From an uncultured Desulfovibrio sp. (GTDB lineage Bacteria; Desulfobacterota; Desulfovibrionia; Desulfovibrionales; Desulfovibrionaceae), in the NCBI GenBank assembly GCA_900541395.1, contig UQJT01000023.1:1-37548 (forward strand): a DNA stretch of 37,548 nucleotides. The letters run 5' to 3'. This document shows, piece after piece, positions 3,694-32,228 of this stretch (positions within the stretch are counted from its first letter, which is position 1; each line of letters begins with the position of its first letter). The position numbers were made by a program, and so were the translations under genes. Under the pieces are notes generated by a model, which worked only from the letters and a program-made list of their open reading frames with translations, did no database searches and was not told the origin of the DNA.

Positions 3694-6600
3694 ATGACGC
3701 TTCGTTTCTTCCCTCTCTGGGGCGCGGCGGCGTTGATGCTGAGCCTGCTCTGCGGACCGGCGGCGGCCGAAAATTCGGGCGACGGGGGCGCTCCCTCCGG
3801 CGGCGCGGTTTCCGCCGGAAACTCCGCCCCGGGCGGGGCGGCCGCGCTGCCCCGCTATTGGAAGGCGGGCGAGGCGTTCTCCGAACGGGGCGGCTCCGGC
3901 GTGGAGGGCAGGGCGGCCCTGACCATGCCGTTCAGGCCCGACGAACGTCTGTGCAAAGCCCGTTACGGCTCCGACTGGCATGCCGTCTGCGGCCGGAGCG
4001 CGGGCTTGGCGGGCCGTCCGGCGCGCGGCGTGGTTCTGACGCCGCCTCTGCCCGGCGTCTGGCGATGGCAGGGCGACATGAGTCTGCGCTTTCAGCCCGA
4101 CGGAGCCTGGCCCGCGGGCGTCGAGTACAAGGTGAGCGTGCCGGATGCGATTCTGCCGCCCGGCGTGGAACTGGACGCGCAGCCGAGTTTCCGGACCCGG
4201 CCCCTGACGGCCGATATCGGCGCTTCTTTCCTGTTCGATCCGCAGGATGCCAAAAAAATGGCCGTGTCCGGCGAAATCCGCTTCAACTACCCGATGGACC
4301 GGGCCGGGGTGGAGCGCCTTTTACGTATTGCCGCGCCCGCCGCGCCCGACGGGGAACGGGTTTTGCTCGGCAAGCCGCTTCTGGACTGGAACGCGGACGC
4401 CGACGTTCTGTCCTTCAGCGTGCCCGTGCTGTCCCAGCCGCGCGGCCCGGCCGGGGTGAGCGTCACGCTCAAGCCCGGCTATTCGGCTCAATCCGGCGGC
4501 GAGGCCGGGCTGGGCGCGGAACTCGTTACCTTCCTCCCCGGTCGGGAGGGGCTGTTCACCCTGAACGGGGTTGAAGCCGTGGTGGCGATCGGAAGCGATC
4601 TGCGCGCCCGCCAGACCCTGACCCTGGATTTTTCCCTGCCCGTCACGGCGGCCGAAGCGCGCGGCGGCGTCACGGCCCTGCTCTTGCCCCGCCAACGGGT
4701 GGAAAACGGCGAAGCCGATCGCCCGCCCTACCGATGGTGGAGTCTGGAGGAAGTGAACGGGGAAATTCTGGGCCGCTCCGAAGCCGTGCCCCTGACCCTG
4801 CCCGAGGCGGCGGACGTGGCGTCCACTCTGGTCAATCTGCCCTTCGGCCGCGAACTGGAGCCGGGCCGCGCCCTGCTGGTTTCGGTGGCGGAAGGGCTGC
4901 GCTCCGCCGACGGTTCGCGCCTGGCCCGCGAAGTCCGCTTTCTGGCGCAGGTTCCCGACTTCCCCGAAGCGCTGCGCATCATGCAGCGGGGCTCCGTTCT
5001 GGCCCTGACCGGACAGACCGCGCTGTCCCTGTACAGCCGCAATCTGGACCTCATCCGTTACGAGGCGGCCCAGGTGCGGCCCGAATTCATCAATCATCTG
5101 ATCAGCCGCTGGGGCGGCTTTGAAGACCCCTGGCAGCGCGGTTTGGATATGGACGTCGTCAGTGTGGTGAACCGGGGCGAACTGCCTCTGGTCCGACGCG
5201 ACGCCGAAACGCCCCAGTTTTCGGCTCTGGATCTGGGACCGTTCCTGAGCGACGGCCGCAAGGGCTTGTTTCTGCTGCGCCTGTTCGGCGAACGCGACGG
5301 CGAGACGGTGGGCGACGACAAGCGCTTTGTGCTGGTCACCGACCTGGGGCTGATCCGCAAACGTTTCGCGGACGGCAGCGGCAGGGTGTACGTGGCTTCG
5401 CTGTCCGCCGGAAAGCCGGTGGCCGGGGCCGAAGTGCGCGTGCTGGGCGCCAACGGCCTGCCCGTGTTTGAAGGCCGTTCCGACGCCGACGGTCAGGTGG
5501 ACCTGCCCGATCTGGACGGCCTGATTCGGGAAAAGAAGCCCGTGGCCGTCACGGCTTCGCTGGGCGACGACCTGGCCTTTCTGCCGTTCAGCGATTACGG
5601 GCGCGAAGTGGACTATTCCCGCTTCGACGTGGGCGGCAACCGGGGGGTGTACGGCGGCATCGACGCCTACCTGTTCGGCGAACGCGACCTGTATCGTCCC
5701 GGCGAAACCGTGCATTTCGGCTACATCGTCAAACAGGGTTCCTGGGACGCCGATGCCCTCAAGGGCCTGCCTCTGCGGGCCGTGGTCACCGATCCGCAAG
5801 GGCGCGAGTTCGCGTCCGCCGTTTTGTCCCTGCCTGCCTCGGGCTTTGGAGACATGGCCTGGCCCCTACCCGAAACGGCGGCCGCCGGGCCTTACCGCCT
5901 GGACCTCATGCTCGACGCCGGAGACCACAAAGGCGGCGTGCTGGGCAGCGCGGAGTTCCGGGTGGAGGAATTTCAGCCCGACACCCTGCGCCTGAGCGTG
6001 AGCCTGGACCCCGCTCCGGCCCGGGGTTGGCTGCGGCCCGAGGACGTGCTCGAAGAGCGGCCCCAAGGCGTGGAGGCCCGCGTTCATCTGGCCAATCTGT
6101 TCGGCGCGCCCGCGTCCGGCCACAGGGTGCGGGCCGCGGCGAGCGTGGAGCCGGCGTCGTTCCGCTTCCGCGAGTACCCGGATTACACTTTTTACAACGC
6201 GGCTCCGGCCGCCCGCCCGTTGCGCGAGGAATTGCCCGAGGGCGTGACCGACGACAACGGCGACTTTGTATTTTCTCTGCCGCCTTCTCTGTATCGGGAG
6301 GCCACCGTTCGCCTGAACGCCGGGATCGAGGGCTTTGAGGCCGGGGGCGGGCGCGGTGTGAAGGCCGAGGCCTCCGTGTTGCTGTCGCCCCTGGATATGG
6401 TCCTGGGCTGGCGCACGGGGTCGCATCTCGGCTATCTGCGCCGGAACGGCAAGGCCGACGTGGACCTGCTGGCCGTGGGGCCCGACCTGGAGCCTCGCGA
6501 GCTGGAGGATGTCACCCTGGAAACCGTCACCGTCACCTACGTCAAATCCCTGATTCGGGACGAGCGCGGCCAGTACCGCTACGACAACATTCCGCAGGAA

Positions 6601-9540
6601 AAGGTGACGGCCTCCCGCCGGGCGAAGCTGCCCGCCGCCGGGCTGACCGTGCCTTTGGACCTGTCCGCCCCGGGCGACCGCGTGTTGGCGGTCCGCGACG
6701 GCGAAGGCCGACTGCTGGCCCGCATTCCTTACGTGGTGGCGGGCGAGGCCGCGGTCGACTTCGACGCCGACCGCGCGCCCGTCCTTGTCGCCCGTTTGAA
6801 CAAACAGGACTACGAACCCGGCGACGAGGTGGAGGTATTTCTGTCCATGCCTTACAAGGGCGCGGGCCTGATCACCGTGGAGCGCGACGCCGTGGCGGCC
6901 CGGACCTGGTTCGCGGCCGAGGCCGGGGACACGGTGCAGCGCGTGCGCCTGCCCCGCGATTTCGAAGGGCGGGCCTTCCTCAACGTCACCTGTTTCCGCG
7001 CCCTGGACGATCCGGATATCTTCACCCGCCCCCTGGCCACGGCCGTGGTGCCGTTCACCGTGAACATGGACGGCCGCGACCTGCATCTGAAGCTGGACCC
7101 CGCGCCCGCTTCCGGCCCGGCGGGCTCCGCCGCGTCCGGGCTTTCCGCCGAGCTTCCCGTGGTCCGGCCCGGCGCTTCCTTCCCGGTGCGGGTGACGGCG
7201 GACCGTCCGGCCCGGGCCGTGATCTTCGCCGTGGACGAAGGCATTTTGCAAATGACCTCGTACCGGACCCCGGACCCTCTGCGCGCCCTGTTGCTGGACC
7301 GCGCCCTGGAAGTGGACACCATGCAGTATTTCGACCTGCTTATGCCGGAATACGGCCTTATGCGCCAGGCCCTGTCGGCCTTCGGCGGGGGCGAGGAAGC
7401 GGCGTTCGCGGCCCGGGGGCTCAACCCCTTCCGCCGTCCCGGCGAACGGTCGGCCGTGTTTTGGTCCGGTTTGATCGACGTGGGGCCCGAGGCCGTGACC
7501 GTGGATGTGCCGGTGCCCGCCTCGTTCAGCGGCCGTTTGCGGGTTATGGGCGTGGCTTGCGGGGACGGGGCCGTGTCTTCGGCCGCGCGGGCCGATGTGC
7601 TGGTTCAGGCCGAGGTGGTCATTCAGCCGCAGATGCCTGTATTCGCGGCCCCGGGCGACGAATTCGAGGCCACCGTCGTCCTGACCGACATGAGCGGCCG
7701 CGCCAAGGGCGGCGCGGGCCGCGCCGTGCGCCTCACGGCCCGCGTGGAAGGCGGCCTGGAACTGGTGAGCGCGCCCGCCGAACCTCTTATCCTGCATGAG
7801 GCCGAGGAGCGGAGCGTGACCCTGCGCTTCCGGGCTTTGGCCCAGCCGGGCGGGGCCACGGTCACCTTTGTCGCGGAGCCCCTGCCGGGCGAGCCGGGCG
7901 AAACCGTGAGTCGGCCCGCCACGCTGTCCGTGCGCCCCGCCACGCCCCGCGCCACGGACCTGGCCGTGGGCCGGACCGCGGGCGCCGCCGGAGCGGTCGT
8001 GCCCTTCACCCGCCGACTTTACCCGCAGTTCGCGTCGCTGTCGGCGTCGTTGTCTCCGCTGCCCCTGCCCGTGGCGCACGGCTTGATGGCGTATCTCGAC
8101 AACTATCCCTACGGCTGTACCGAGCAATTGCTCAGCGCGGGCTTTCCGGCCCTGGTGCTGCTGCGCAGCCCCGAGCTCGCTCCGCGGGGCCCGGCCTACA
8201 CGGCCGAGGCTCTGCGCGAGCGGGTGACCGACACTTTGGCCATGCTCGTCGCCCGTTATGCGGGGGACGGCGAGTTTTCAACGTGGTCCGCGGGGTACGC
8301 CGGAGACCGCTTCCTCAGCGTGTACGCGGCGGACTTCATGACCACGGCGGCCGAAGCCGGGGTGGCCGTGCCCTATAATCTGCGGGCAAGTTTGTTGCGC
8401 TTTCTGGAGCAAAGCGCCGCCGAAACCCCGCTCGACCCGGACGAAGCCCGGCTCAACGCTTACGCCGCCTGGGTTCTGACCCGCAACGGCATCCTGACCT
8501 CCAACATTCTGGCCACGCTCACGGCCTGGCTGGACACCTATCAGCCCGGCTGGCACACGGACCTGACCGCCGTGTTCATGGCCGGGTGCCATCAGCTTAT
8601 GATGCAACGGCAGGAGGCCGCCCGCCTCATCGCGGGCTACGAGCCCGATCCGTCAAGCGTGTGGACGCAGGGCGGCCGGATGGACGGCCTGGCTTCGCGT
8701 TCTTTGTATCTGTCCGTATTGGCCGCCCAGTTTCCGGACCTGCTGAGTTCGGACAAGGCCCAGGCCATGCTGGCCGACATTCTGGCCGTGGCGGCCGAGC
8801 GCCGCTACGTCACGGTTTCCGCCGCCCAGGCCGCGCGCGCCCTTATGGTCTACAGCCGGGGCTTGGCTCCGGACCTGTCCGGAGCCGCCATCACCGCCCT
8901 GGACGCGGAGGGACGGACCCTGGAACTGGTCCTGACCGAGGGCGACCGTATGCGCTCCGTCAGCCTGGAGAGCGGGGCGGACGGCGATGCCGCGCTGCCT
9001 TGGCCGGCCGCGCTGGCCTTCCGTTCTCCGGTCCCGGCCTACTGGCAGGTGGAAAGCGCGGGCTTTGACCGCGAGCCTCCCGCCCGGCCCCTGGACCAGG
9101 GCATGGCCGTGGCCCTCGAGTTGCGACGGCCCGACGGCTCGCCCGCCGTCGACATCCACGCGGGCGACGAACTGGTGTTGGTCGTCCGCGCCCGCGCTTA
9201 CGGCGGGCCCGTGGACAGCGTCGCCATCACCGCCCTGCTGCCCGGCGGCCTGGAAATGATCCTGGCCGAGGGCGGTGGGGTTGTGGATGCCGATCTTGAA
9301 GGCGGCGGCGACGAAGCCGGAAGTCTGGCCTCGGATCGCCCCATGTCCCTCGATTATGTGGAGCGCCGCGACGACCGCCTGTTGCTCTTCCCCCGCCTGG
9401 ACACCGAGGACGCCGTATATCGCTGCCGCGTGCGCGCGGCGGCGCGCGGCGTCTTCGTCCTGCCCCCGGTTTACGCCGAGGCCATGTATGATCCCCTCGT
9501 CCGCGCCCACTCCGCCGTGGGTACGCTGACGGTGGAATAA
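3694..9540 (+). CDS. Bacterial alpha-2-macroglobulin (YfhM-like)
   Basis: A very large periplasmic protease trap: a target protease cleaves the bait region, the protein collapses around it and can attach covalently through a thioester. At 1948 aa it is longer than E. coli YfhM (about 1650). A signal peptide covers roughly residues 1-25 (cleavage near AAA). The Cys at about 20 is not in a good lipobox, so unlike YfhM it may be soluble. MG2-like sequence (YRPGETVHFGYIVKQ) lies near residue 667 and the A2M domain near 1255 (FWSGLIDVGPEAVTVDVPVP). The intact thioester motif GCTEQ has its Cys at 1475. The C-terminal third resembles an alpha/alpha-toroid followed by a receptor-like MG domain. It is followed by pbpC, the classic partner that repairs peptidoglycan once the wall is breached. 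Confidence 0.95.
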   Translation: MTLRFFPLWGAAALMLSLLCGPAAAENSGDGGAPSGGAVSAGNSAPGGAAALPRYWKAGEAFSERGGSGVEGRAALTMPFRPDERLCKARYGSDWHAVCGRSAGLAGRPARGVVLTPPLPGVWRWQGDMSLRFQPDGAWPAGVEYKVSVPDAILPPGVELDAQPSFRTRPLTADIGASFLFDPQDAKKMAVSGEIRFNYPMDRAGVERLLRIAAPAAPDGERVLLGKPLLDWNADADVLSFSVPVLSQPRGPAGVSVTLKPGYSAQSGGEAGLGAELVTFLPGREGLFTLNGVEAVVAIGSDLRARQTLTLDFSLPVTAAEARGGVTALLLPRQRVENGEADRPPYRWWSLEEVNGEILGRSEAVPLTLPEAADVASTLVNLPFGRELEPGRALLVSVAEGLRSADGSRLAREVRFLAQVPDFPEALRIMQRGSVLALTGQTALSLYSRNLDLIRYEAAQVRPEFINHLISRWGGFEDPWQRGLDMDVVSVVNRGELPLVRRDAETPQFSALDLGPFLSDGRKGLFLLRLFGERDGETVGDDKRFVLVTDLGLIRKRFADGSGRVYVASLSAGKPVAGAEVRVLGANGLPVFEGRSDADGQVDLPDLDGLIREKKPVAVTASLGDDLAFLPFSDYGREVDYSRFDVGGNRGVYGGIDAYLFGERDLYRPGETVHFGYIVKQGSWDADALKGLPLRAVVTDPQGREFASAVLSLPASGFGDMAWPLPETAAAGPYRLDLMLDAGDHKGGVLGSAEFRVEEFQPDTLRLSVSLDPAPARGWLRPEDVLEERPQGVEARVHLANLFGAPASGHRVRAAASVEPASFRFREYPDYTFYNAAPAARPLREELPEGVTDDNGDFVFSLPPSLYREATVRLNAGIEGFEAGGGRGVKAEASVLLSPLDMVLGWRTGSHLGYLRRNGKADVDLLAVGPDLEPRELEDVTLETVTVTYVKSLIRDERGQYRYDNIPQEKVTASRRAKLPAAGLTVPLDLSAPGDRVLAVRDGEGRLLARIPYVVAGEAAVDFDADRAPVLVARLNKQDYEPGDEVEVFLSMPYKGAGLITVERDAVAARTWFAAEAGDTVQRVRLPRDFEGRAFLNVTCFRALDDPDIFTRPLATAVVPFTVNMDGRDLHLKLDPAPASGPAGSAASGLSAELPVVRPGASFPVRVTADRPARAVIFAVDEGILQMTSYRTPDPLRALLLDRALEVDTMQYFDLLMPEYGLMRQALSAFGGGEEAAFAARGLNPFRRPGERSAVFWSGLIDVGPEAVTVDVPVPASFSGRLRVMGVACGDGAVSSAARADVLVQAEVVIQPQMPVFAAPGDEFEATVVLTDMSGRAKGGAGRAVRLTARVEGGLELVSAPAEPLILHEAEERSVTLRFRALAQPGGATVTFVAEPLPGEPGETVSRPATLSVRPATPRATDLAVGRTAGAAGAVVPFTRRLYPQFASLSASLSPLPLPVAHGLMAYLDNYPYGCTEQLLSAGFPALVLLRSPELAPRGPAYTAEALRERVTDTLAMLVARYAGDGEFSTWSAGYAGDRFLSVYAADFMTTAAEAGVAVPYNLRASLLRFLEQSAAETPLDPDEARLNAYAAWVLTRNGILTSNILATLTAWLDTYQPGWHTDLTAVFMAGCHQLMMQRQEAARLIAGYEPDPSSVWTQGGRMDGLASRSLYLSVLAAQFPDLLSSDKAQAMLADILAVAAERRYVTVSAAQAARALMVYSRGLAPDLSGAAITALDAEGRTLELVLTEGDRMRSVSLESGADGDAALPWPAALAFRSPVPAYWQVESAGFDREPPARPLDQGMAVALELRRPDGSPAVDIHAGDELVLVVRARAYGGPVDSVAITALLPGGLEMILAEGGGVVDADLEGGGDEAGSLASDRPMSLDYVERRDDRLLLFPRLDTEDAVYRCRVRAAARGVFVLPPVYAEAMYDPLVRAHSAVGTLTVE

Positions 9541-9549
9541 CAACTTGAT

Positions 9550-9599
9550 GCGGGGAAGGGGAGGGAACTTGTTGCAACAAGTTCCCTCCCCTTCCCCGC
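9550..9599. terminator. 50-bp perfect palindrome after the macroglobulin gene
   Basis: Positions 9550-9574 are the exact reverse complement of 9575-9599, so the dyad is perfect with no spacer; as RNA it folds to a very stable hairpin. It begins ten bases after the macroglobulin stop. The flanks lack a T-tract on either strand, so classic intrinsic termination is uncertain. It could instead protect the mRNA 3' end. Confidence 0.7.
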
Positions 9600-9630: not shown

Positions 9631-12219
9631 ATGGGTGAAAACCGGACATTGCAGGCAAAATCGTCCCGCTGCTCCCCGGCGCGGCAGCGGCGGGGAACGG
9701 CGTATGCCGGGTCAAGGGGCGGCTCGCCCCTTGCGGGGGGCGGAGCCCCCGCTCAGAATGATGACAAACCCCGCTCTGCGGAGTTTGCGCCGTCCAAGCC
9801 GCCAAGCGGCTTGACGGAAAGGCACGAAAATCGCTCGTTTAACGGCGCGGCAAAGCCGCGACCTACTCGCAATTTTCGGGCTGCTGACTTTATCAGCAGC
9901 CTGGACGGGGGCGGAGCCCCCGTTCTTAAACGATGCCTTTTTTTCTTCGCGTTGTTGGTATTGCTCGCGTTCCTGGGGCTGGCAGGGGCCGTCGGGCTGG
10001 CGCCCAAGCCGGACTTGTGGGGAGGGGCGGATTTTTCGCGGGTGGTGACGGATCGATCGGGCCGGGTTCTGCGGGTGACGCTGACCCGGGACGAAAAATA
10101 CCGCATCTTCACGCCGCTGGAGCGCATCCCGGCCGCCATGCGCGAAGCCGCCATACTTTATGAGGATCGGGCTTTCTACCGTCACCCCGGCGTCAATCCT
10201 CTGGCTCTGGTCCGGGCTGTGGCGGGCATGGCCGCGGGGGGGCGGCGCATGGGCGCTTCCACCATCACCATGCAACTGGTGCGCCTGCGGGACGGACTGG
10301 ACACCACCACCGTCCCCGGCAAGTTGCGCCAGATGTGGCGGGCGCTGGTGCTGGAGCGGCACTACGACAAGCGGGCCGTTCTGGAAGCTTACCTGAATCT
10401 TGCGCCCTACGGCGGCAACGTGGAGGGCGTGGGCGCGGCGGCCCGGGTCTGGTTTCGCAAAGACGCCGCCCTCCTCAGCCTGCCGGAAATCATGGCTCTG
10501 GTTCCGGTGCCCCAGCATCCGGCGGCCCGCAATCCGGCGGCCCGCCGGGGCAGGGCGTTGCCCGAGGCGCGCGAACGCCTGGCCGGATTGTGGCGGGAAA
10601 AATACCCCGAGGTCGGAAACCTGTTTGAAAGCGCGCCGCTGGCCGTGTCCGGCCCGGCCGATCTGCCCTTCGAGGCTCCCCACGCCGTGGCCGAAATTCT
10701 GGCCCGGCCGGACCTGCCCGAGGGCGAAATCGTCACCACCCTGGATTTGCCCACGCAGCGCGTGGTGGAACGCGCCCTGAAACGGGCCGTGGCCCGGGGC
10801 CGGGTGTGGGGCATGAACAACGCGGCGGCCTTGCTGGTGGACTGGCGCGACGGTTCCGTCCGCGCTCTGGCGGGGTCGGCGGATTTTTTCGACGCGGGCA
10901 TTCAGGGGCAGGTGGACGGCACGGCGGCACGGCGTTCGCCGGGGTCCACGCTCAAACCCTTTGTGTACGCCCTGGCTCTGGAACAGGGGCTGATTCATCC
11001 TTTGACCGTGCTGGCCGATACCCCCCGCGTCTTCCGGGGCTACGAGCCGGAAAACGCGGACGGCGAATTTCGCGGCCCGGTCAGCGCCCGCGAGGCGCTG
11101 CGGGCCAGCCGCAATATTCCGGCCGTGGCCCTGGCCGGGCGTCTGGCCCCGCCGGGTCTGTACGGTTTTTTGACCGGAGCGGGCGTGGACTTTCCCGAAT
11201 CCGCCGAGCATTACGGCCTGGCCCTGGTTCTGGGCGGAGCCGAACTTTCCATGCGCGAACTGGCGGGCCTGTACACCGCCTTGCCGGGGCGGGGCATGGC
11301 GCGGCAGCCGGTGTTGTTGCCGCGGGAACGGAACCGGGCCCGGCGCGTGCTGTCGCCCGAGGCGGCTTACGTAACCCTGGACATGCTGCGCGCGCCCTCT
11401 CCCTCGGGGCCCACGCCCTTCACGGCCTGCTGGAAAACGGGCACCTCCAACGGCCGCCGCGACGCCTGGACCGTCGGCGTGATAGGCCCCTACGTGCTGG
11501 CGGTATGGGTGGGCAACTTCGACGGCGCGGCCAACCCCGGCTTTACGGGCGCGGGCGCGGCGGCCCCGCTCTTTTTCGACATCGCCCGCGCCCTGGCCGC
11601 CCGCGAAGCTCTGCCCGATCCGCTGCGGAACCGGGAAGGGCTCAATCTGGTCCGCATCCCGGTGTGCGCGGCCACCGGCGACCTGAACACCGTCCTGTGC
11701 CCCGAGGCCGGGGGCCGGGCCGAAACCTGGTTCATCCCCGGCGTGTCGCCCATCGCGGATTCGGGCATCCTGCGGGAAATTTTGGTGGACCGTGAAACGG
11801 GCCTGCGCCAGTGCCGGGATATCGAGGGCCGCACCGAGCGGATGGTGTGGGAGTTCTGGCCCGCCGATCTGCGCCGCCTGTTTCGTCAGGCCGGGATCAA
11901 CAAGCCGCCCGCGCCCCCCTTTGCGCCGGAATGCCTGGACGGCGGTCCGCCGCCGGGGCGGCCGCCCGTCATCACCTCGCCCCGGCCCGGCGTGGTCTAC
12001 AGCCGCAGTCTGACCCGGCCCGGCCCCATTCCGCTGCTGGCCGATACCGAGGCCGACGCGGACGGGGTGTTCTGGTTTGCGGGCACCCGTTTTCTGGGCC
12101 GGAGCGGGCCGGATGAACCCCTGCTGTGGGACCCCGCGCCCGGCATCACCGAACTGCGGGCCGTGGACGACCTGGGCCGGGCGACCAGCCTGCGCGTGAA
12201 CGTGGAAACGGTGCCGTAA
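9631..12219 (+). CDS. pbpC: Penicillin-binding protein 1C (glycosyltransferase/transpeptidase)
   Basis: A bifunctional inner-membrane peptidoglycan synthase paired with the macroglobulin gene. Numbered from 9631, a membrane segment lies at about 103-121. It is followed by a GT51 domain (EDRAFYRHPGVNP, GASTITMQLVR, LNLAPYGGNVEGVG) and a transpeptidase domain. The latter has SxxK (STLK, Ser codon 10945-10947), SRN and KTGTSNG. The C-terminal domain of the PbpC family ends the protein. The start is unreliable: 9631 is the only in-frame ATG before the membrane segment, has no ribosome-binding site, and the first ~100 residues are translated intergenic repeat. An ATG at 9933 would give a normal N-terminus but is out of frame because of a run of seven T. 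Function is certain; the 5' end is not. Confidence 0.9.
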   Translation: MGENRTLQAKSSRCSPARQRRGTAYAGSRGGSPLAGGGAPAQNDDKPRSAEFAPSKPPSGLTERHENRSFNGAAKPRPTRNFRAADFISSLDGGGAPVLKRCLFFFALLVLLAFLGLAGAVGLAPKPDLWGGADFSRVVTDRSGRVLRVTLTRDEKYRIFTPLERIPAAMREAAILYEDRAFYRHPGVNPLALVRAVAGMAAGGRRMGASTITMQLVRLRDGLDTTTVPGKLRQMWRALVLERHYDKRAVLEAYLNLAPYGGNVEGVGAAARVWFRKDAALLSLPEIMALVPVPQHPAARNPAARRGRALPEARERLAGLWREKYPEVGNLFESAPLAVSGPADLPFEAPHAVAEILARPDLPEGEIVTTLDLPTQRVVERALKRAVARGRVWGMNNAAALLVDWRDGSVRALAGSADFFDAGIQGQVDGTAARRSPGSTLKPFVYALALEQGLIHPLTVLADTPRVFRGYEPENADGEFRGPVSAREALRASRNIPAVALAGRLAPPGLYGFLTGAGVDFPESAEHYGLALVLGGAELSMRELAGLYTALPGRGMARQPVLLPRERNRARRVLSPEAAYVTLDMLRAPSPSGPTPFTACWKTGTSNGRRDAWTVGVIGPYVLAVWVGNFDGAANPGFTGAGAAAPLFFDIARALAAREALPDPLRNREGLNLVRIPVCAATGDLNTVLCPEAGGRAETWFIPGVSPIADSGILREILVDRETGLRQCRDIEGRTERMVWEFWPADLRRLFRQAGINKPPAPPFAPECLDGGPPPGRPPVITSPRPGVVYSRSLTRPGPIPLLADTEADADGVFWFAGTRFLGRSGPDEPLLWDPAPGITELRAVDDLGRATSLRVNVETVP
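9713..9752. other. Two hairpins preceding the 152-bp repeat
   Basis: Arms 9713-9721 and 9725-9733 form a perfect 9-bp stem with a 3-nt loop. It is followed by a GC-rich hairpin at 9733-9752 with a GGA apical loop. They sit directly upstream of repeat copy A. Copy B also has a GC hairpin at this place, with different sequence. Confidence 0.6.
9753..9904 (+). repeat. 152-bp multi-hairpin dispersed repeat, copy A
   Basis: This sequence is identical to 15068-15219 at 150 of 152 positions by eye. It can fold into successive hairpins: a 12-bp stem with one bulged base, a 6-bp stem with loop AAA, and a 9-bp stem with loop CTTTA. One of the two differences falls exactly on the bulge. An open frame runs through it on both strands, but I regard both as spurious. 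It ends about 30 bp before the out-of-frame ATG of pbpC. Confidence 0.92.
9906..9925 (+). terminator. Terminator-like hairpin closing repeat copy A
   Basis: Stem 9906-9912/9916-9922 is 7 bp of G/C with loop GGA, followed by TTCTT. Copy B ends in a hairpin of different sequence but with the same GGA loop. The poor T-run makes termination uncertain here, and it lies just upstream of pbpC. Confidence 0.5.
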
Positions 12220-12247
12220 GCACCGGAGGCTTATGCATCCTTTGTCG

Positions 12248-12301
12248 ACGCCGTTAAAAGCGGCGTTGGAAGTCATTTCATACGAATTATGAAATGACTT
12301 C
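12248..12301. terminator. Hairpins between convergent pbpC and the kinase gene
   Basis: Arms 12248-12253 and 12261-12266 form a 6-bp stem. Arms 12269-12282 and 12288-12301 form a perfect 14-bp stem with a 5-nt loop. The second is AT-rich, standing out from its surroundings. It is placed to act as a terminator for pbpC. Confidence 0.6.
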
Positions 12302-12434
12302 TAATCCGTAGGAAATGAGTTCCGGAGAGGCTTAAGGGGGGCCCAGGTCCGGGCCTTCGGACGGGAAAAAGCGCCATAAAGAGCGGCGAAAAGAACGATG
12401 GCCCGGGCCGGAAGCAAAGTGGGCGATGCGGCAA

Positions 12435-12995
12435 CTACAGCGCGCGCAGTCGAGCCAGGATGGACGCGGCGCACTGGGCGGGATCGAGGGCGGCGGAATC
12501 CACGGAAAAGGTCGCATAGCGGCGGTACAGGGCCTCGCGCTCGCGGAACAGGTCGGCCACGCTTTGGCCCGGCGCGATGGCCAAGCCCCGGTTGGGGTTG
12601 CGGGCGATGCGCTCTTCCACCACGGGCAGGGGCGCGTTCAGGTGCACGATGGGGCCCAGAGCGGCCAGATGTCGCATGGCGGCCTCGCGGTACACCACGC
12701 TGCCGCCCGGGGCCAGCACGCAGCGATTCAGGCGCAAGCCGCCGATGACCTCGGCTTCGATGTCCAGAAAGGTTTCCTTGTCCACGGCTTCGGTGACGGT
12801 CTGGAGGGGGACGCCGTAGACCGCCTCGATGATGTGGTCGCCGTCCGCGAAGGCCCAGTCCAGGCGGCGGGCCAGAACCTTGCCCACGGTGCTCTTGCCC
12901 GCGCCCGCCATGCCGATGAGCGAGATGCAGAAGCCCTCGGGCAGGTTGGGAAACATCTGTTGCGTATCGGGCTCGACGGAGCGGAAAGCGGGCAT
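12435..12995 (-). CDS. Shikimate-kinase-like P-loop small-molecule kinase
   Basis: The 186-aa protein has the shikimate-kinase fold: Walker A GMAGAGKST (residues 28-36), the ADGDHIIE acid motif after the first P-loop helix, a PGGSVVYRE loop and the C-terminal EALYRRYA segment. By homology it would phosphorylate shikimate at O3. However, the shikimate-binding motif normally read as GFRxxE is TFLDIE here, with Leu77 in place of the substrate-binding Arg, and the usual GGG is PGG. A related substrate such as homoserine is therefore possible. ATG 12995 is chosen; ATG 12956 (MFPNLPEGF) is an alternative. It is a lone gene without an evident operon partner. Confidence 0.8.
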   Translation of the reverse strand: MPAFRSVEPDTQQMFPNLPEGFCISLIGMAGAGKSTVGKVLARRLDWAFADGDHIIEAVYGVPLQTVTEAVDKETFLDIEAEVIGGLRLNRCVLAPGGSVVYREAAMRHLAALGPIVHLNAPLPVVEERIARNPNRGLAIAPGQSVADLFREREALYRRYATFSVDSAALDPAQCAASILARLRAL

Positions 12996-13135
12996 GGTTC
13001 GACCCCCGGATGGAAAACGACGCCCGGGCGACGCCGGTCGCCCTCCCGAAGGGAGCGCGCCGCCGCCGCGCGAGTAACAGCGTGACACGACACTAAACCG
13101 GCTCGGCGCTTCCGGCAAGACAGCCCTTGCCCCTT

Positions 13136-13226
13136 AGAGCATGTTGCTTTTGAAATTGCCCGATTTCGAAAGCGCCGCCGCCGTCATTTCGCCTGAAAAG
13201 CGTGGGCTTTCAGGCTGGCGCGGGCG
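13136..13226 (+). repeat. AGAGC-family dispersed repeat (half element)
   Basis: About 80% identical by eye to the reverse complement of 16643-16731, including AGAGCAT, TTGCTTTTGAAATTG and GCCGTCATTTCGC. It folds into two hairpins, one using CCTGAAA and TTTCAGG. It stops close to the ppa stop codon, so the other half of the element appears to be missing. Confidence 0.8.
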
Positions 13227-13240
13227 GAGATGACGCCCCC

Positions 13241-13771
13241 TCAGCGGCAGAATTTTTCCACATAGCGGTCCAGGCAGTCCTGAATGACCTGTTTGGCGGC
13301 GTCGGCGTTCTGCACGTAGTCGATGGCCGTCTTTTTGCCTTCCAGTTCCTTATAGACGGAAAAGAAGTGGGTCATTTCGTCGAAAATGTGCTTGGGCAGT
13401 TCGGAAATATCCCGGTACTGGTTGTACGTGGGGTCGCTGAAGGGCAGAGCGATGATTTTTTCGTCCTTGTCGCCGCCGTCTTCCATGCCGATGACTCCGA
13501 TGGGGAAGCAACGCACCAGGCTGCGCGGCAGGAGCAGTTCCGAACACAGGACCAACACGTCCAGAGGGTCGTTGTCCAGGGCGTAGGTGCGGGGGATAAG
13601 CCCGTAGCTGGCCGGGTAGTGGGTCGACGTATACAGCACCCGGTCCATGATCAGCAGACCCGTTTCCTTGTCCAGTTCGTATTTGACCTTGCCGCCCTTG
13701 GGGATTTCGATAACCGCGCAAAAGTCGTGGGGGCGGATGCGTTCGGGCGAAATTTCGTGCCAGATGTTCAT
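13241..13771 (-). CDS. ppa: Inorganic pyrophosphatase (family I)
   Basis: This cytoplasmic enzyme hydrolyses pyrophosphate to two phosphates and so drives biosynthetic reactions forward. In sulfate reducers it also pulls sulfate activation by ATP sulfurylase. The 176-aa length fits the family. The signature DNDPLDVLV carries metal-binding aspartates. EIPKGGKVKYELDKETG and the HYPASYGLIPRTYALD segment are typical of soluble class-I enzymes. It is a single gene with its own probable promoter. Confidence 0.97.
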   Translation of the reverse strand: MNIWHEISPERIRPHDFCAVIEIPKGGKVKYELDKETGLLIMDRVLYTSTHYPASYGLIPRTYALDNDPLDVLVLCSELLLPRSLVRCFPIGVIGMEDGGDKDEKIIALPFSDPTYNQYRDISELPKHIFDEMTHFFSVYKELEGKKTAIDYVQNADAAKQVIQDCLDRYVEKFCR

Positions 13772-13813
13772 AGTAGGGAAGACTCCGTCAGTCGTGGAAA
13801 GTTCGGAGAAAGC

Positions 13814-13842
13814 AGGATAGGTCGGAAAGGCCGCGAGGGCAA
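13814..13842 (-). promoter_or_regulatory. Probable promoter of ppa
   Basis: On the minus strand TTGCCC (13837-13842) and TATCCT (13814-13819) are spaced by 17 bp, giving a leader of about 35-40 nt before the ppa ATG. Each box matches the consensus at four of six positions. Confidence 0.45.
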
Positions 13843-13899
13843 GCGGAAGGCCGCCCCGCGACGCGGCGTCCGCACGGAAAGGGGCTTGAAAGAAACGCC

Positions 13900-13931
13900 A
13901 AAAGGCAGGCCGGGATAAATCCCGACCTGCC
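13900..13931 (-). terminator. Intrinsic terminator of rplM-rpsI
   Basis: Stem GGCAGG-CGGGA (13904-13915) pairs with TCCCG-CCTGCC (13920-13931) with one mismatch and a 4-nt loop. On the minus strand it is followed by TTTTGGCGTTTC. It lies 25 bp after the rpsI stop. Confidence 0.8.
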
Positions 13932-13955
13932 GAGCGGACCGGAGAGGGGCGCGTT

Positions 13956-14348
13956 TTAGCGCTTGGAGTACTGGTACCGGGCGCGGGCGGCGGCCAGACC
14001 GTACTTTTTGCGTTCTTTCTTACGCGCGTCGCGCGTGAGGAAACCGGCGCGCTTCAGCGCGGGGCGCAACGCGGGGTCGGCCGCCAGCAACGCGCGGGAA
14101 ATGCCGTGACGCACCGCCTCGGCCTGGCCGGTCACGCCGCCGCCGGACACGTTGACCTTGACGTCGTAACGGTCGAGCAGCTTGGTGAGCACCAGGGGCT
14201 GGCGGATGATCATCTGGAGGGTCTTGCGCGGAAAATACTGTTCCACGGGGCGACCGTTGATTTCAATATTGCCCGAGCCGGCATACAGACGGGTGCGGGC
14301 GGTGGCCGTTTTGCGGCGGCCGGTGCCGTAGTCGAACGTGGTGGACAT
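13956..14348 (-). CDS. rpsI: 30S ribosomal protein S9
   Basis: The 130-aa S9 protein binds 16S rRNA in the head of the small subunit; its C-terminal tail reaches the P-site tRNA. The sequence shows [15 protein letters not shown] at the N-terminus, the [19 protein letters not shown] core and the conserved basic tail ending QYSKR. The start at 14348 lies 11 bp after rplM, the usual L13-S9 pair. A longer frame through rplM is a reading-frame artefact. Confidence 0.98.
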
Positions 14349-14359
14349 GGGTCGCGCTC

Positions 14360-14794
14360 CTAATTCTGAAAGGTCAGCGGCTGGGGAGCCTGGGCGGCGT
14401 GGGGATGCTCGGCCCCGGCGTAAATCTTCAACTTTTTGAGCATGGCGCGGCCCAGGCGATTCTTGGGCAGCATGCCGCGCACGGCGTGGCGCAACACTTC
14501 CTCGGGCTTGGCGGCCAGTTGCTTTTCCAGGGTGATTTCCTTGAGGCCGCCCACCCAACCGGAGTGGCTGTAATACTTTTTCTTCTGGAGCTTGCCGCCG
14601 GTCACGCGGATTTTGTCGCAGTTGACCACCACGATAAAGTCGCCGTTGTCCATGTGCGGGGCGAACTCGGGCTTGTGCTTGCCGCGCAGGCGGTGGGCGA
14701 TCTGGGAGGCGAGGCGGCCGAGAATCTGGCTGTCCGCGTCCACCAGGTACCACTGGCGATCTATGGTTTCCGGGGTCGGAGTGAAGGTTTTCAT
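14360..14794 (-). CDS. rplM: 50S ribosomal protein L13
   Basis: The 144-aa L13 is an early assembly protein of the large subunit. Conserved features are [18 protein letters not shown] near the N-terminus, [26 protein letters not shown] and [12 protein letters not shown]. An AGGAGA ribosome-binding site precedes the ATG. It is first in the rplM-rpsI operon, with a clear promoter upstream and a terminator after rpsI. Confidence 0.98.
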
Positions 14795-14831
14795 GAGCTA
14801 TCTCCTGTCTCGCTCTATGGCAAAGACCGAA

Positions 14832-14860
14832 TGAATAGGCCGTTATCAGACCGGTGTCAA
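14832..14860 (-). promoter_or_regulatory. Sigma70-type promoter of rplM-rpsI
   Basis: A perfect TTGACA -35 (14855-14860, minus strand) is 17 bp from TATTCA (14832-14837), giving a leader of about 30 nt before the rplM ATG. Confidence 0.65.
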
Positions 14861-14940
14861 CAAAAAAACGCCGCAACGCCGCCCGGGGGGGCCGCGTCGG
14901 CATGGCGGACGTCCGGGCGGAGGTGTAACGGGGCCGTCCG

Positions 14941-15067
14941 GGCTTGCCAGGGGGGTGGAATCAGTTTAATTGCCATAAGCGTATCGCTTAATCAAGCCTG
15001 GAAAAAGCGTTTCGCCAAGCGCCGGCGTCGGTCGAAGCCTGCCTTTCGCCCGTGTGGCGCGCGGGCG
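14941..15067 (+). repeat. Repeat mosaic upstream of pgk
   Basis: A nested hairpin (14941-14946 with 14993-14998, and 14976-14981 with 14985-14990) is followed by a CCTGGAAAAA...CCAAGCG module at 14997-15021, similar to 16655-16678. Next comes a 22-bp block (15029-15050) that matches 32207-32228 at 21 positions. A GC hairpin (CGCCCG/CGGGCG, near 15048-15068) then leads directly into the 152-bp repeat. I see no gene in this stretch. Confidence 0.65.
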
Positions 15068-15219
15068 TCAGAATGATGACAAACCCCGCTCTGCGGAGTT
15101 TGCGCCGTCTAAGCCGCCAAGCGGCTTGACGGAAAGGCACGAAAATCGCTCGCTTAACGGCGCGGCAAAGCCGCGACCTACTCGCAATTTTCGGGCTGCT
15201 GACTTTATCAGCAGCCTGG
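15068..15219 (+). repeat. 152-bp multi-hairpin dispersed repeat, copy B
   Basis: Second copy of the element at 9753-9904, in the same orientation and also upstream of a plus-strand gene. Hairpins are at 15105-15132 (5 + 7 bp with a bulged base, loop CAA), 15161-15175 (loop AAA) and 15194-15216 (9 bp, loop CTTTA). It runs straight into an intrinsic terminator. It could be a short structured RNA, a miniature mobile element, or both. Confidence 0.92.
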
Positions 15220-15244
15220 CCGCACTGGAAGTGCGGCTCTTTTT
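15219..15244 (+). terminator. Intrinsic terminator closing repeat copy B
   Basis: Stem GCCGCACT (15219-15226) pairs with AGTGCGGC (15230-15237), loop GGA, followed by CTTTTT-like sequence (T-run 15240-15244). It lies about 75 bp upstream of the pgk ATG. It would end any transcript of the repeat, so pgk needs its own start site downstream; a CATAAA -10-like box at 15260-15265 is only weak evidence. Confidence 0.75.
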
Positions 15245-15318
15245 AACAGGGAAAAATGGCATAAAACGGGGGGGCGGACGCCGGAGCGCGTCGCGCCCTT
15301 CGATATAAGGAGTTCGGG

Positions 15319-16497
15319 ATGAAAGTACTGACCATGGACGACGTGGACCTGCGCGGCAAGCGGGTGGTCATGCGTTTGGATCTCAACGTGCCCATGAAAA
15401 ACGGCGTCATCACCAGCGACAAGCGTGTCCGCGCCGTGCTGCCCACCATCCGCAAAGCGCTCGACGCCGGGGCCGCCGTGATCCTGCTCTCCCATCTGGG
15501 CCGTCCCGTCGAGGGCGAGTTCGACCCGGCCTTCTCCCTGCGGCCCGTGGCCGAACACCTGGGGAAGCTCCTGGGCCGTTCCGTGGCCTTCTGCGCGGAA
15601 CCCCTGGCCGGGGTGGACGTGAAGCCCGGCGACGTGGCGCTGTGCGAGAACGTACGTTTCCTCAAGGGAGAAAAGAAGAACGACGAGACCCTGGCCGCCA
15701 AACTGGCCGCCCTGGGCGACGTGTACGTCATGGACGCCTTCGGTGCGGCCCACCGCGCCCACGCCTCCACCGAAGGAGCGGTGCGCAAGGCCGGGGTAGC
15801 CGTGGCCGGTCCCCTCATGCTGGCCGAGATGGAGGCCGCGGAAAAGCTGCTGGACCGCCCGGCGCGGCCGTTGTGCGCCATCATCGGCGGCTCCAAGGTG
15901 TCCACCAAGCTCACCGTGTTGGAAAACCTGTTGAACAAGGTGGATTGCCTCATTGTGGGCGGCGGCATCGCCAATACCTTCCTGGCCGCCGCCGGTTATC
16001 CCATGGGCGCGTCCCTGGTGGAAAAGGATCTGGAGCCCGAAGCCCGCCGCCTTATGGACCTGGCCCAGGAACGCAACGCGGATCTGCCCCTGCCCCTGGA
16101 CCTCATGGTGGCCCCCGACCTCCGGCATCCGGAACAGGCCGAACTGCGCGCTCTGGCCGACATGCGCGAAAAAGACGCCGCCCTGGACGTGGGGCCGGAA
16201 AGCGTCAAACATTATACGCCGTACCTGAACGGAGCCGCCACCATAGTCTGGAACGGCCCGGTGGGCGCGTTCGAAACCCCGCCTTTCGACCAGGCCAGTC
16301 GCGCCATAGCCGATATCCTGGCCGAGTCCCCGGCGTACACCGTGGTCTGCGGCGGCGATACCGTGGCCGCCGTCGAAGCCTTCGGCCTGGCCGACAGGAT
16401 GGATTACCTGTCCACCGGCGGCGGGGCCTTTCTGGAAGTGCTGGAAGGAAAAAAACTGCCCGCCGTGGCGGCGCTGGAGGACCGGACGCGGTCCTGA
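15319..16497 (+). CDS. pgk: Phosphoglycerate kinase
   Basis: PGK transfers phosphate between 1,3-bisphosphoglycerate and ADP in cytoplasmic glycolysis and gluconeogenesis. The 392-aa product is normal in length. Motifs in order: RLDLNVP (substrate-binding N-domain), SHLGRP, RAHASTEGA, IIGGSKVSTK, the FDxA-equivalent PFDQASRAIADILAE after WNGPVGAFE, and the nucleotide-binding CGGDTVAAVE and STGGGAFLEVLEGKKLP at the C-terminus. An AAGGAG site six bases before the ATG fixes the start. It is single-gene and convergent with the downstream amino-acid-binding protein. Confidence 0.98.
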   Translation: MKVLTMDDVDLRGKRVVMRLDLNVPMKNGVITSDKRVRAVLPTIRKALDAGAAVILLSHLGRPVEGEFDPAFSLRPVAEHLGKLLGRSVAFCAEPLAGVDVKPGDVALCENVRFLKGEKKNDETLAAKLAALGDVYVMDAFGAAHRAHASTEGAVRKAGVAVAGPLMLAEMEAAEKLLDRPARPLCAIIGGSKVSTKLTVLENLLNKVDCLIVGGGIANTFLAAAGYPMGASLVEKDLEPEARRLMDLAQERNADLPLPLDLMVAPDLRHPEQAELRALADMREKDAALDVGPESVKHYTPYLNGAATIVWNGPVGAFETPPFDQASRAIADILAESPAYTVVCGGDTVAAVEAFGLADRMDYLSTGGGAFLEVLEGKKLPAVAALEDRTRS

Positions 16498-16590: not shown

Positions 16591-16731
16591 AGAGCGGTTT
16601 GCTGTTGAAAACGGCAAGCGCTCCGGCGGCTGCGGGAGCGGACGCCCGCGTCGGCCTGAAAAACACGTTTTCCAAGCGAAATGACGGCAGCGCGCTTGTG
16701 AAATTGGACAATTTCAAAAGCAAAATGCTCT
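16591..16731. repeat. 141-bp MITE-like AGAGC element with terminal inverted repeats
   Basis: The ends 16591-16611 and 16711-16731 are imperfect 21-bp inverted repeats (17 of 21 paired by eye), both starting AGAGC outward-in. No frame inside encodes a protein. The right 89 bp are shared with 13136-13226 in opposite orientation. I see no clear target-site duplication. It occupies most of the gap after pgk. Confidence 0.75.
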
Positions 16732-16737
16732 GAGACA

Positions 16738-32148: not shown

Positions 32149-32228
32149 AGAGCATGTTCAAGCCGAAAATGCTCGGGGCGAACGCCGGGGCGTGCTTCGC
32201 CAGCGGCGGTCGAAGCCTGCCTTTTGCC
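32149..32228. repeat. AGAGC hairpin and shared 22-bp repeat block upstream of gdx
   Basis: An AGAGCAT...ATGCTC hairpin (32149-32174) resembles the ends of the AGAGC family. At 32207-32228 lies a block matching 15029-15050 at 21 of 22 positions. These repeat remnants fill the gap between the permease pair and the gdx promoter. I see no gene here. Confidence 0.65.

Follow-up and report, generated by a model that had tools for sequence, protein, structure and literature searches.

A stretch of 37,548 nucleotides of contig UQJT01000023.1 of an uncultured Desulfovibrio sp. (hereafter the window) carries two copies of a repeat of ~150 bp that is probably, at a rough probability of 0.7, a non-autonomous mobile element. 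The element has no conserved reading frame, and would insert at palindromes recognised by the shape of their stem-loops rather than by their sequence, many of these being intrinsic terminators. An initial annotation, made from the window alone, had suggested a non-autonomous mobile element as one explanation of the repeat, and this suggestion is now well supported, because there are many dispersed copies with the same ends, because copies occur at sites that relatives have empty, and because in most tested copies matching hairpins lie on both sides of the core.

The two window copies are identical at 150 of 152 positions (98.68% over 152 nt) and lie in the same orientation, as first reported and as a repeat search and pairwise comparison bore out; chance similarity was rejected at 98.7% over 152 nt. 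One of the two differences lies in a bulge of hairpin 2, in agreement with the unpaired bulge originally described, and the other in the internal loop of domain 3, both being unpaired in the folds. The core had been said to form three clear hairpins; it does fold, but into four hairpin domains (H1, H2, H3 and H4) over ~150 nt. The parts of the two copies are as follows.

9736-9750, plus strand: left flank hairpin of copy 1, GGGGGC-GGA-GCCCCC (sequence; repeat family D11; left and right match with a score of 33, the 99% level being 25)
9753-9904, plus strand: element copy 1, core (repeat match; covariance model, 167.8 bits)
9765-9787, plus strand: copy 1 hairpin H1 (fold)
9790-9817, plus strand: copy 1 hairpin H2 (fold; outer stem covaries)
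9825-9877, plus strand: copy 1 domain H3, with outer stem, internal loop and inner hairpin (fold; covariation)
9878-9900, plus strand: copy 1 hairpin H4 (fold; covariation)
9906-9922, plus strand: right flank hairpin of copy 1, CGGGGGC-GGA-GCCCCCG, matching the left; no T-run found (sequence; D11; flank test; terminator scan)
15047-15067, plus strand: left flank hairpin of copy 2 (stem abutting the core; sequence unrelated to the right hairpin)
15068-15219, plus strand: element copy 2, core (repeat match; covariance model, 168.4 bits)
15080-15102, plus strand: copy 2 hairpin H1 (fold)
15105-15132, plus strand: copy 2 hairpin H2 (fold)
15140-15192, plus strand: copy 2 domain H3 (placed by alignment and pair counts; the single-sequence fold draws the outer stem differently)
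15193-15215, plus strand: copy 2 hairpin H4 (fold)
15218-15245, plus strand: right flank hairpin of copy 2 with GGA loop and T-run, terminator-like (terminator scan, 0.8 expected in shuffles)

Matching hairpins and empty sites

The hairpins that abut the core differ between loci and are usually alike on both sides of any one locus. In 39 of 55 copies, a count that is not fully independent owing to insertions shared between related genomes (L102/L124, L120/L123 and L115/L116), the best match between left and right flanks exceeded the 99% level of 2708 cross-genome pairs; in an earlier test, 10 of 16 copies matched. The tested copies were those with both ends recognisable, chosen by eye after the flanks had been printed, and represent 56 of the 93 available (14 of 29 loci in the genome of Candidatus Mailhella excrementigallinarum, G002; 40 of 62 other loci, L099-L160; and both window copies), from which L106 was then dropped for its short flank. 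Some of the loci not chosen have twin hairpins too (L112, L127, L134 and L158), and L042, whose end was misplaced in the 55-copy test, was scored there as a miss, having matched in the 16-copy test. The matching stretches are 15 to 43 nt long, with a few extending into the core, and several hairpin pairs share the same stem but have different loops. A stem of at least six pairs abuts both ends in 35 of the 55 copies, as compared to 8 of 165 control positions.

The window copies illustrate both outcomes. Copy 1 passes the flank test with a score of 33, its flanks at 9729-9754 and 9900-9925 matching each other, whereas copy 2, with a score of 12 and two unrelated hairpins, fails. Thus, the earlier description of the flanks as unrelated is correct between copy 1 and copy 2, but not within copy 1. 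The right-hand GGA-loop hairpins noted at both copies are present, and in the terminator scan only that of copy 2 is followed by a T-run. The closing fold said to be kept while its bases change resembles target sequence rather than a selected RNA feature.

Orientation appears to be free. For the 56 chosen copies, the strands of the flanking genes, called by a crude open-frame rule, were (-,-) in 18 cases, (+,-) in 16, (+,+) in 14 and (-,+) in 6, with 2 uncalled, and a fixed orientation relative to the upstream gene was dropped as an explanation after this count. T-runs are found on the right only in 13 copies and A-runs on the left only in 9; 2 copies have both and 32 have neither. Such variation in gene orientation and in T- and A-runs indicates that the element inserts either way round and, given that a clear T-run is present in under half of the copies, its target is better named a hairpin than always a terminator.

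The clearest view of a target before and after insertion is provided by L118, a filled site of G088. Its orthologue in G090 lacks the element and carries a single terminator hairpin, and in G088 this same hairpin is found on both sides of the core, with the T-run kept on the right only; G086 and G137 each have one terminator of different sequence at this site. L101 agrees with duplication as well, the filled site having two matching hairpins and three relatives having a single terminator of different sequence.

Arrangements of this kind may be explained by an enzyme, supplied in trans, that would act on stem-loops extruded as a cruciform. The element would be joined to the two stem-loops at their opposite feet, after which gap filling would leave the complete stem-loop present on both sides. 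In this way a full terminator, including its T-run, could remain, so that the neighbouring gene would be little harmed. Among the features recognised by the enzyme there may also be the folded core, probably in single-stranded form as DNA. Action on extruded stem-loops fits the use of hairpins of any sequence, the occurrence of both orientations, and the copying of the stem-loop to the other side. If this mechanism holds, the length of the target duplication would be set by the shape of the DNA and not by a fixed enzyme spacing, and each copy would record the hairpin on which it landed, making shape-directed transposition testable from genomes alone.

Elements that target stem-loops are known. 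IS1272 (IS1182 family) and TnSha1 use stem-loop targets without sequence preference, several of them proven terminators, and remove all or part of the stem-loop with no target duplication (PMC5678879, PMC4923244). The likeness extends to hairpin targets of any sequence and, in the same sources, to both orientations being reported at one target (PMC5678879, PMC4923244). However, IS1272 and TnSha1 encode a transposase, are far larger, and remove the stem-loop, whereas the present element duplicates the hairpin in most tested copies, and for this reason it is not filed as IS1272-type. The IS1272 paper also draws a hypothetical alternative in which the entire stem-loop would be duplicated if joining took place at the 5' feet (PMC5678879), and the element looks like a product of that drawn pathway. 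To the extent that PMC5678879 and PMC4923244 are representative, known terminator-targeting elements destroy part of the hairpin, whereas the element described here often leaves the hairpin in duplicate and would thereby be able to spread with little harm to neighbouring genes.

Several observations weigh against insertion of a mobile element by hairpin duplication. Sixteen of the 55 copies, including window copy 2, fail the flank test. Among the 39 matching copies, the match was better in direct orientation in 26, better inverted in 10 and tied in 3, and a plain target duplication should be direct, although flipping of the loop after insertion could explain the inverted matches. The terminal inverted repeats are weak, with 4 to 13 matches in 16-18 nt (median 9), as compared to a background mean of 6.9 and a 95% level of 10. 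At L099, the hairpin of the empty relative G088 is not duplicated at the filled site. L119, filled in G090, is ambiguous: G086 has a single hairpin at this place, and the filled site has its right hairpin intact and on the left at best a worn hairpin copy, failing the flank test. A search for the IS1182 transposase (NF033551) found no match over the cut-off in 24 genomes, many of them drafts, and weaker matches in 10 of the 24. Draft genomes easily lose repeated transposase genes. Of 30 weaker IS1182-type loci, none has the two ends of the element in order, this search being confined to that transposase family. Lastly, an ordinary miniature inverted-repeat transposable element (MITE) needs no conserved internal fold. 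As to the place of L119 in other genomes, a clean hairpin is lacking in G136, and in G088 and G087 the place is taken by a different insertion of ~285 bp (L244 and L245) that is perhaps another small mobile element.

The fold of the core

When each window copy was folded as a stretch of 178 nt that includes its right-hand hairpin, it outdid all 200 dinucleotide-preserving shuffles (z -5.8). A covariation check, proposed in the initial annotation, gave a strong signal. In an alignment of 41 copies made without reference to structure, compensatory changes were found in 13 of the 26 consensus pairs, as compared to 8.4 in shuffles, and cells changed on both sides numbered 99 versus 33.9; controls with slid partners reached at most 7 pairs and 10 cells, a comparison that favours the 26-pair structure because it is the consensus of the same alignment. 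The first alignment, of 17 copies, had 12 of 47 pairs covarying against 4.4 expected, with the structure drawn from window copy 1 and likewise favoured over slid controls. Examples from the 41-copy alignment are several pairs of H4, and two in the outer stem of H3 that are A-U/C-G in some copies and G-C/G-C in others. Further pair types did not rise above control (23 versus 22.9 in 41 copies, and 27 versus 25.7 in 17 copies). Taken together, there is strong evidence that the fold of the core is maintained by compensatory changes.

The strand on which pairing is kept was addressed by counting G-U pairs (GT) and A-C mismatches at paired positions. Cells with GT numbered 9 and cells with AC 28 in the 41-copy alignment (27 and 32 in the first alignment, and 34 and 106 in the first 55 model-fitted rows), and AC was ahead at 10 of the 15 pairs showing either, the remaining 5 being ties. 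This is the reverse of what is expected for a plus-strand RNA and, the cells not being independent, is a hint that the molecule in which pairing is maintained is DNA or the minus strand. For lack of a G-U excess, selection for pairing in a plus-strand RNA was rejected. In 37 of 41 copies the minus strand gives the more stable fold. This was rejected as a signal, base composition being enough to account for the difference of 4.5 kcal/mol (3.9 in mononucleotide shuffles, standard deviation 0.5). A coding element was rejected too, the best frame being open in only 18 of 41 copies.

A conserved fold of this strength, with its conserved unpaired bases, is also what would be expected of a functional RNA, either a 3' untranslated region element or a small RNA, that had spread by ordinary duplication and whose flank hairpins were its own processing or termination signals. 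The terminator-like hairpin with T-run after copy 2 fits this explanation, but the free orientation to genes does not, nor does the count of 9 GT to 28 AC, which gives no sign of plus-strand RNA pairing, and flank hairpins that are alike within a locus but not between loci are not what own signals would look like. In addition, no sigma-70-like promoter match was found near either window copy in a scan limited to that promoter type. A functional RNA is thus improbable. The structured RNA or mini transcription unit first proposed finds support in its structure alone, through the strong covariation, and a small-RNA gene is not supported. Rfam gave no family match at gathering score on the element, either in the window or in 12 loci, and at permissive thresholds gave matches at chance level, mostly microRNA models on one palindrome in L158.

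The same fold raises the question of a retroelement that targets terminators by a mechanism related to that of group IIC introns. Group IIC introns insert next to terminator stem-loops, and the core of the element is RNA-like in its folding. However, they do so in a single orientation, are not known to duplicate the hairpin, and comprise a much larger catalytic RNA, whereas the element occurs in both orientations; no Rfam intron match was found on it. We consider this the least likely of the explanations, and very improbable.

Pairing kept by compensatory change, with no plus-strand G-U excess, as for DNA or the other strand, is also in keeping with a REPIN-like core that moves as folded single-stranded DNA by means of a domesticated tyrosine (HUH) transposase, the match of the flanks arising from a single strand meeting the target hairpin. 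We know of no target duplication left by HUH transposition of this kind, which speaks against it. REPINs are miniature non-autonomous elements with predicted single-stranded DNA folds that are tied to RAYT transposases, and the element resembles them in being short, non-autonomous and extragenic with such a predicted fold (PMC3116915). As described there, a REPIN consists of a single fixed REP sequence arranged as an inverted doublet, whereas the element has a conserved 150-nt core of four domains and end hairpins that are specific to each locus. A REPIN-like origin is therefore unlikely, if somewhat less so than a functional RNA.

Classical MITEs share with the element a short, non-coding and dispersed nature and a duplicated target, but differ in that here the terminal inverted repeats are weak, the length of the duplication follows the target hairpin, and the inside of the element has a covarying fold. 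A more far-reaching form of the mobile element reading is that the element belongs to a class that has not been described, whose transposition substrate would be the folded core itself, in the form of RNA or of single-stranded DNA, with the host terminator hairpin being copied across on insertion. We hold this only tentatively, and as less likely than not to be correct in full. If it were, the element would represent a natural case of a stem-loop-duplicating pathway that has so far been only a drawn alternative, with insertion at terminators keeping termination.

A dispersed family in the Desulfovibrionaceae

The BLASTN search of relatives suggested at the outset revealed many dispersed copies, rather than only the two in the window. 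In Candidatus Mailhella excrementigallinarum there are 37 BLAST rows, and 44 rows with a covariance model built from 17 copies, corresponding to ~37 separate places; this many in one genome matters for genome rearrangement and for how intergenic regions are annotated. Of 19 genomes of Mailhella, a member of the Desulfovibrionaceae, BLAST at E 0.01 picks out 2, in one case through no more than a single weak hit, and the covariance model picks out 1. Of 288 genomes of the family, 28 gave a match at E 1e-4 in a search that scored no more than 2 candidates in each, such that absence from a given genome is not firm. When 14 of these 28 were searched in full, each yielded 1 to 16 matches. In a phylum sample of 297 genomes, 8 match, and all eight are already among the family matches; here 10 candidates were scored per genome under strict filters, and absence is again not firm. 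The family is thus patchy and, as far as sampled, confined to Desulfovibrionaceae. The exact pattern of the window's H4 hairpin had no match in contigs of the genome collection, where the similarity search finds the family; viral contigs scanned with two patterns gave no match, and neither did blastn against plasmids and phages. A full-text search of open-licence papers found no description of the family, which may be described elsewhere.

The identity between copies, 98.7% for the window pair and 92-96% for four copies in G067, suggests recent spread. The best copy in G002 is 90% identical to window copy 2, and the PbpC proteins are 63% identical. Copies that match at the 5' end only might have been longer relatives, but on inspection they look decayed or seem to have lost internal sequence. 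In L040 (1193-1550), an element copy is split by ~222 nt inside the H3 loop, and L031 has ~50 extra nt apparently at the same place. Partial copies in pairs 116 to 171 bp apart (G087:C30, G103:C12 and G103:C2) suggest tandem arrays. In G060, a flavin mononucleotide (FMN) riboswitch lies at L110 497-646, ~850 bp from an element copy.

The surroundings of the two copies in the window

The neighbours of copy 1 are an alpha-2-macroglobulin gene (3694-9540) and pbpC. Only one open reading frame leads into pbpC, starting from an ATG at 9631 and running in frame through copy 1 (9631-12219), and relatives of pbpC, which are found in Mailhella and other, mostly uncultured, bacteria, align from about residue 100 of this frame onward, just past the element. 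The native start of pbpC may thus have been displaced by copy 1. In L001 and L006, the gene before pbpC, judged by eye, ends a few bases from pbpC, and because the genes nearly abut there, the ~390 bp that separate the alpha-2-macroglobulin gene from pbpC in the window, with copy 1 among them, appear to have been added.

Copy 2 is flanked by rplM-rpsI, which are on the minus strand, and by pgk, which is on the plus strand. The closest pgk among the 19 Mailhella genomes is that of G014 (86% protein identity), which has no element match and which, over 15.6 kb before and around pgk, has only pgk in common with the window, providing no empty site for copy 2. The gene before pgk in G014 is, by eye, a transketolase gene and, since this differs from the window, copy 2 may lie where a rearrangement exchanged the flanks of two copies. 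In that case copy 2 may mark the rearrangement point that placed rplM-rpsI beside pgk (14794-15319).

Other repeats are present in the window. A perfect 50-bp palindrome is located at 9550-9599, just 3' of the alpha-2-macroglobulin gene. A 31-nt direct repeat (15020-15050 and 32198-32228, 90% alike) adjoins copy 2 on the left with its first unit, and a 43-nt inverted repeat (13133-13175 and 16692-16734, 86% complementary) brackets the rpsI-rplM-pgk region. Near the start of the window, at 53-254, is a tandem duplication of 101 nt, the units of which are 95% alike.

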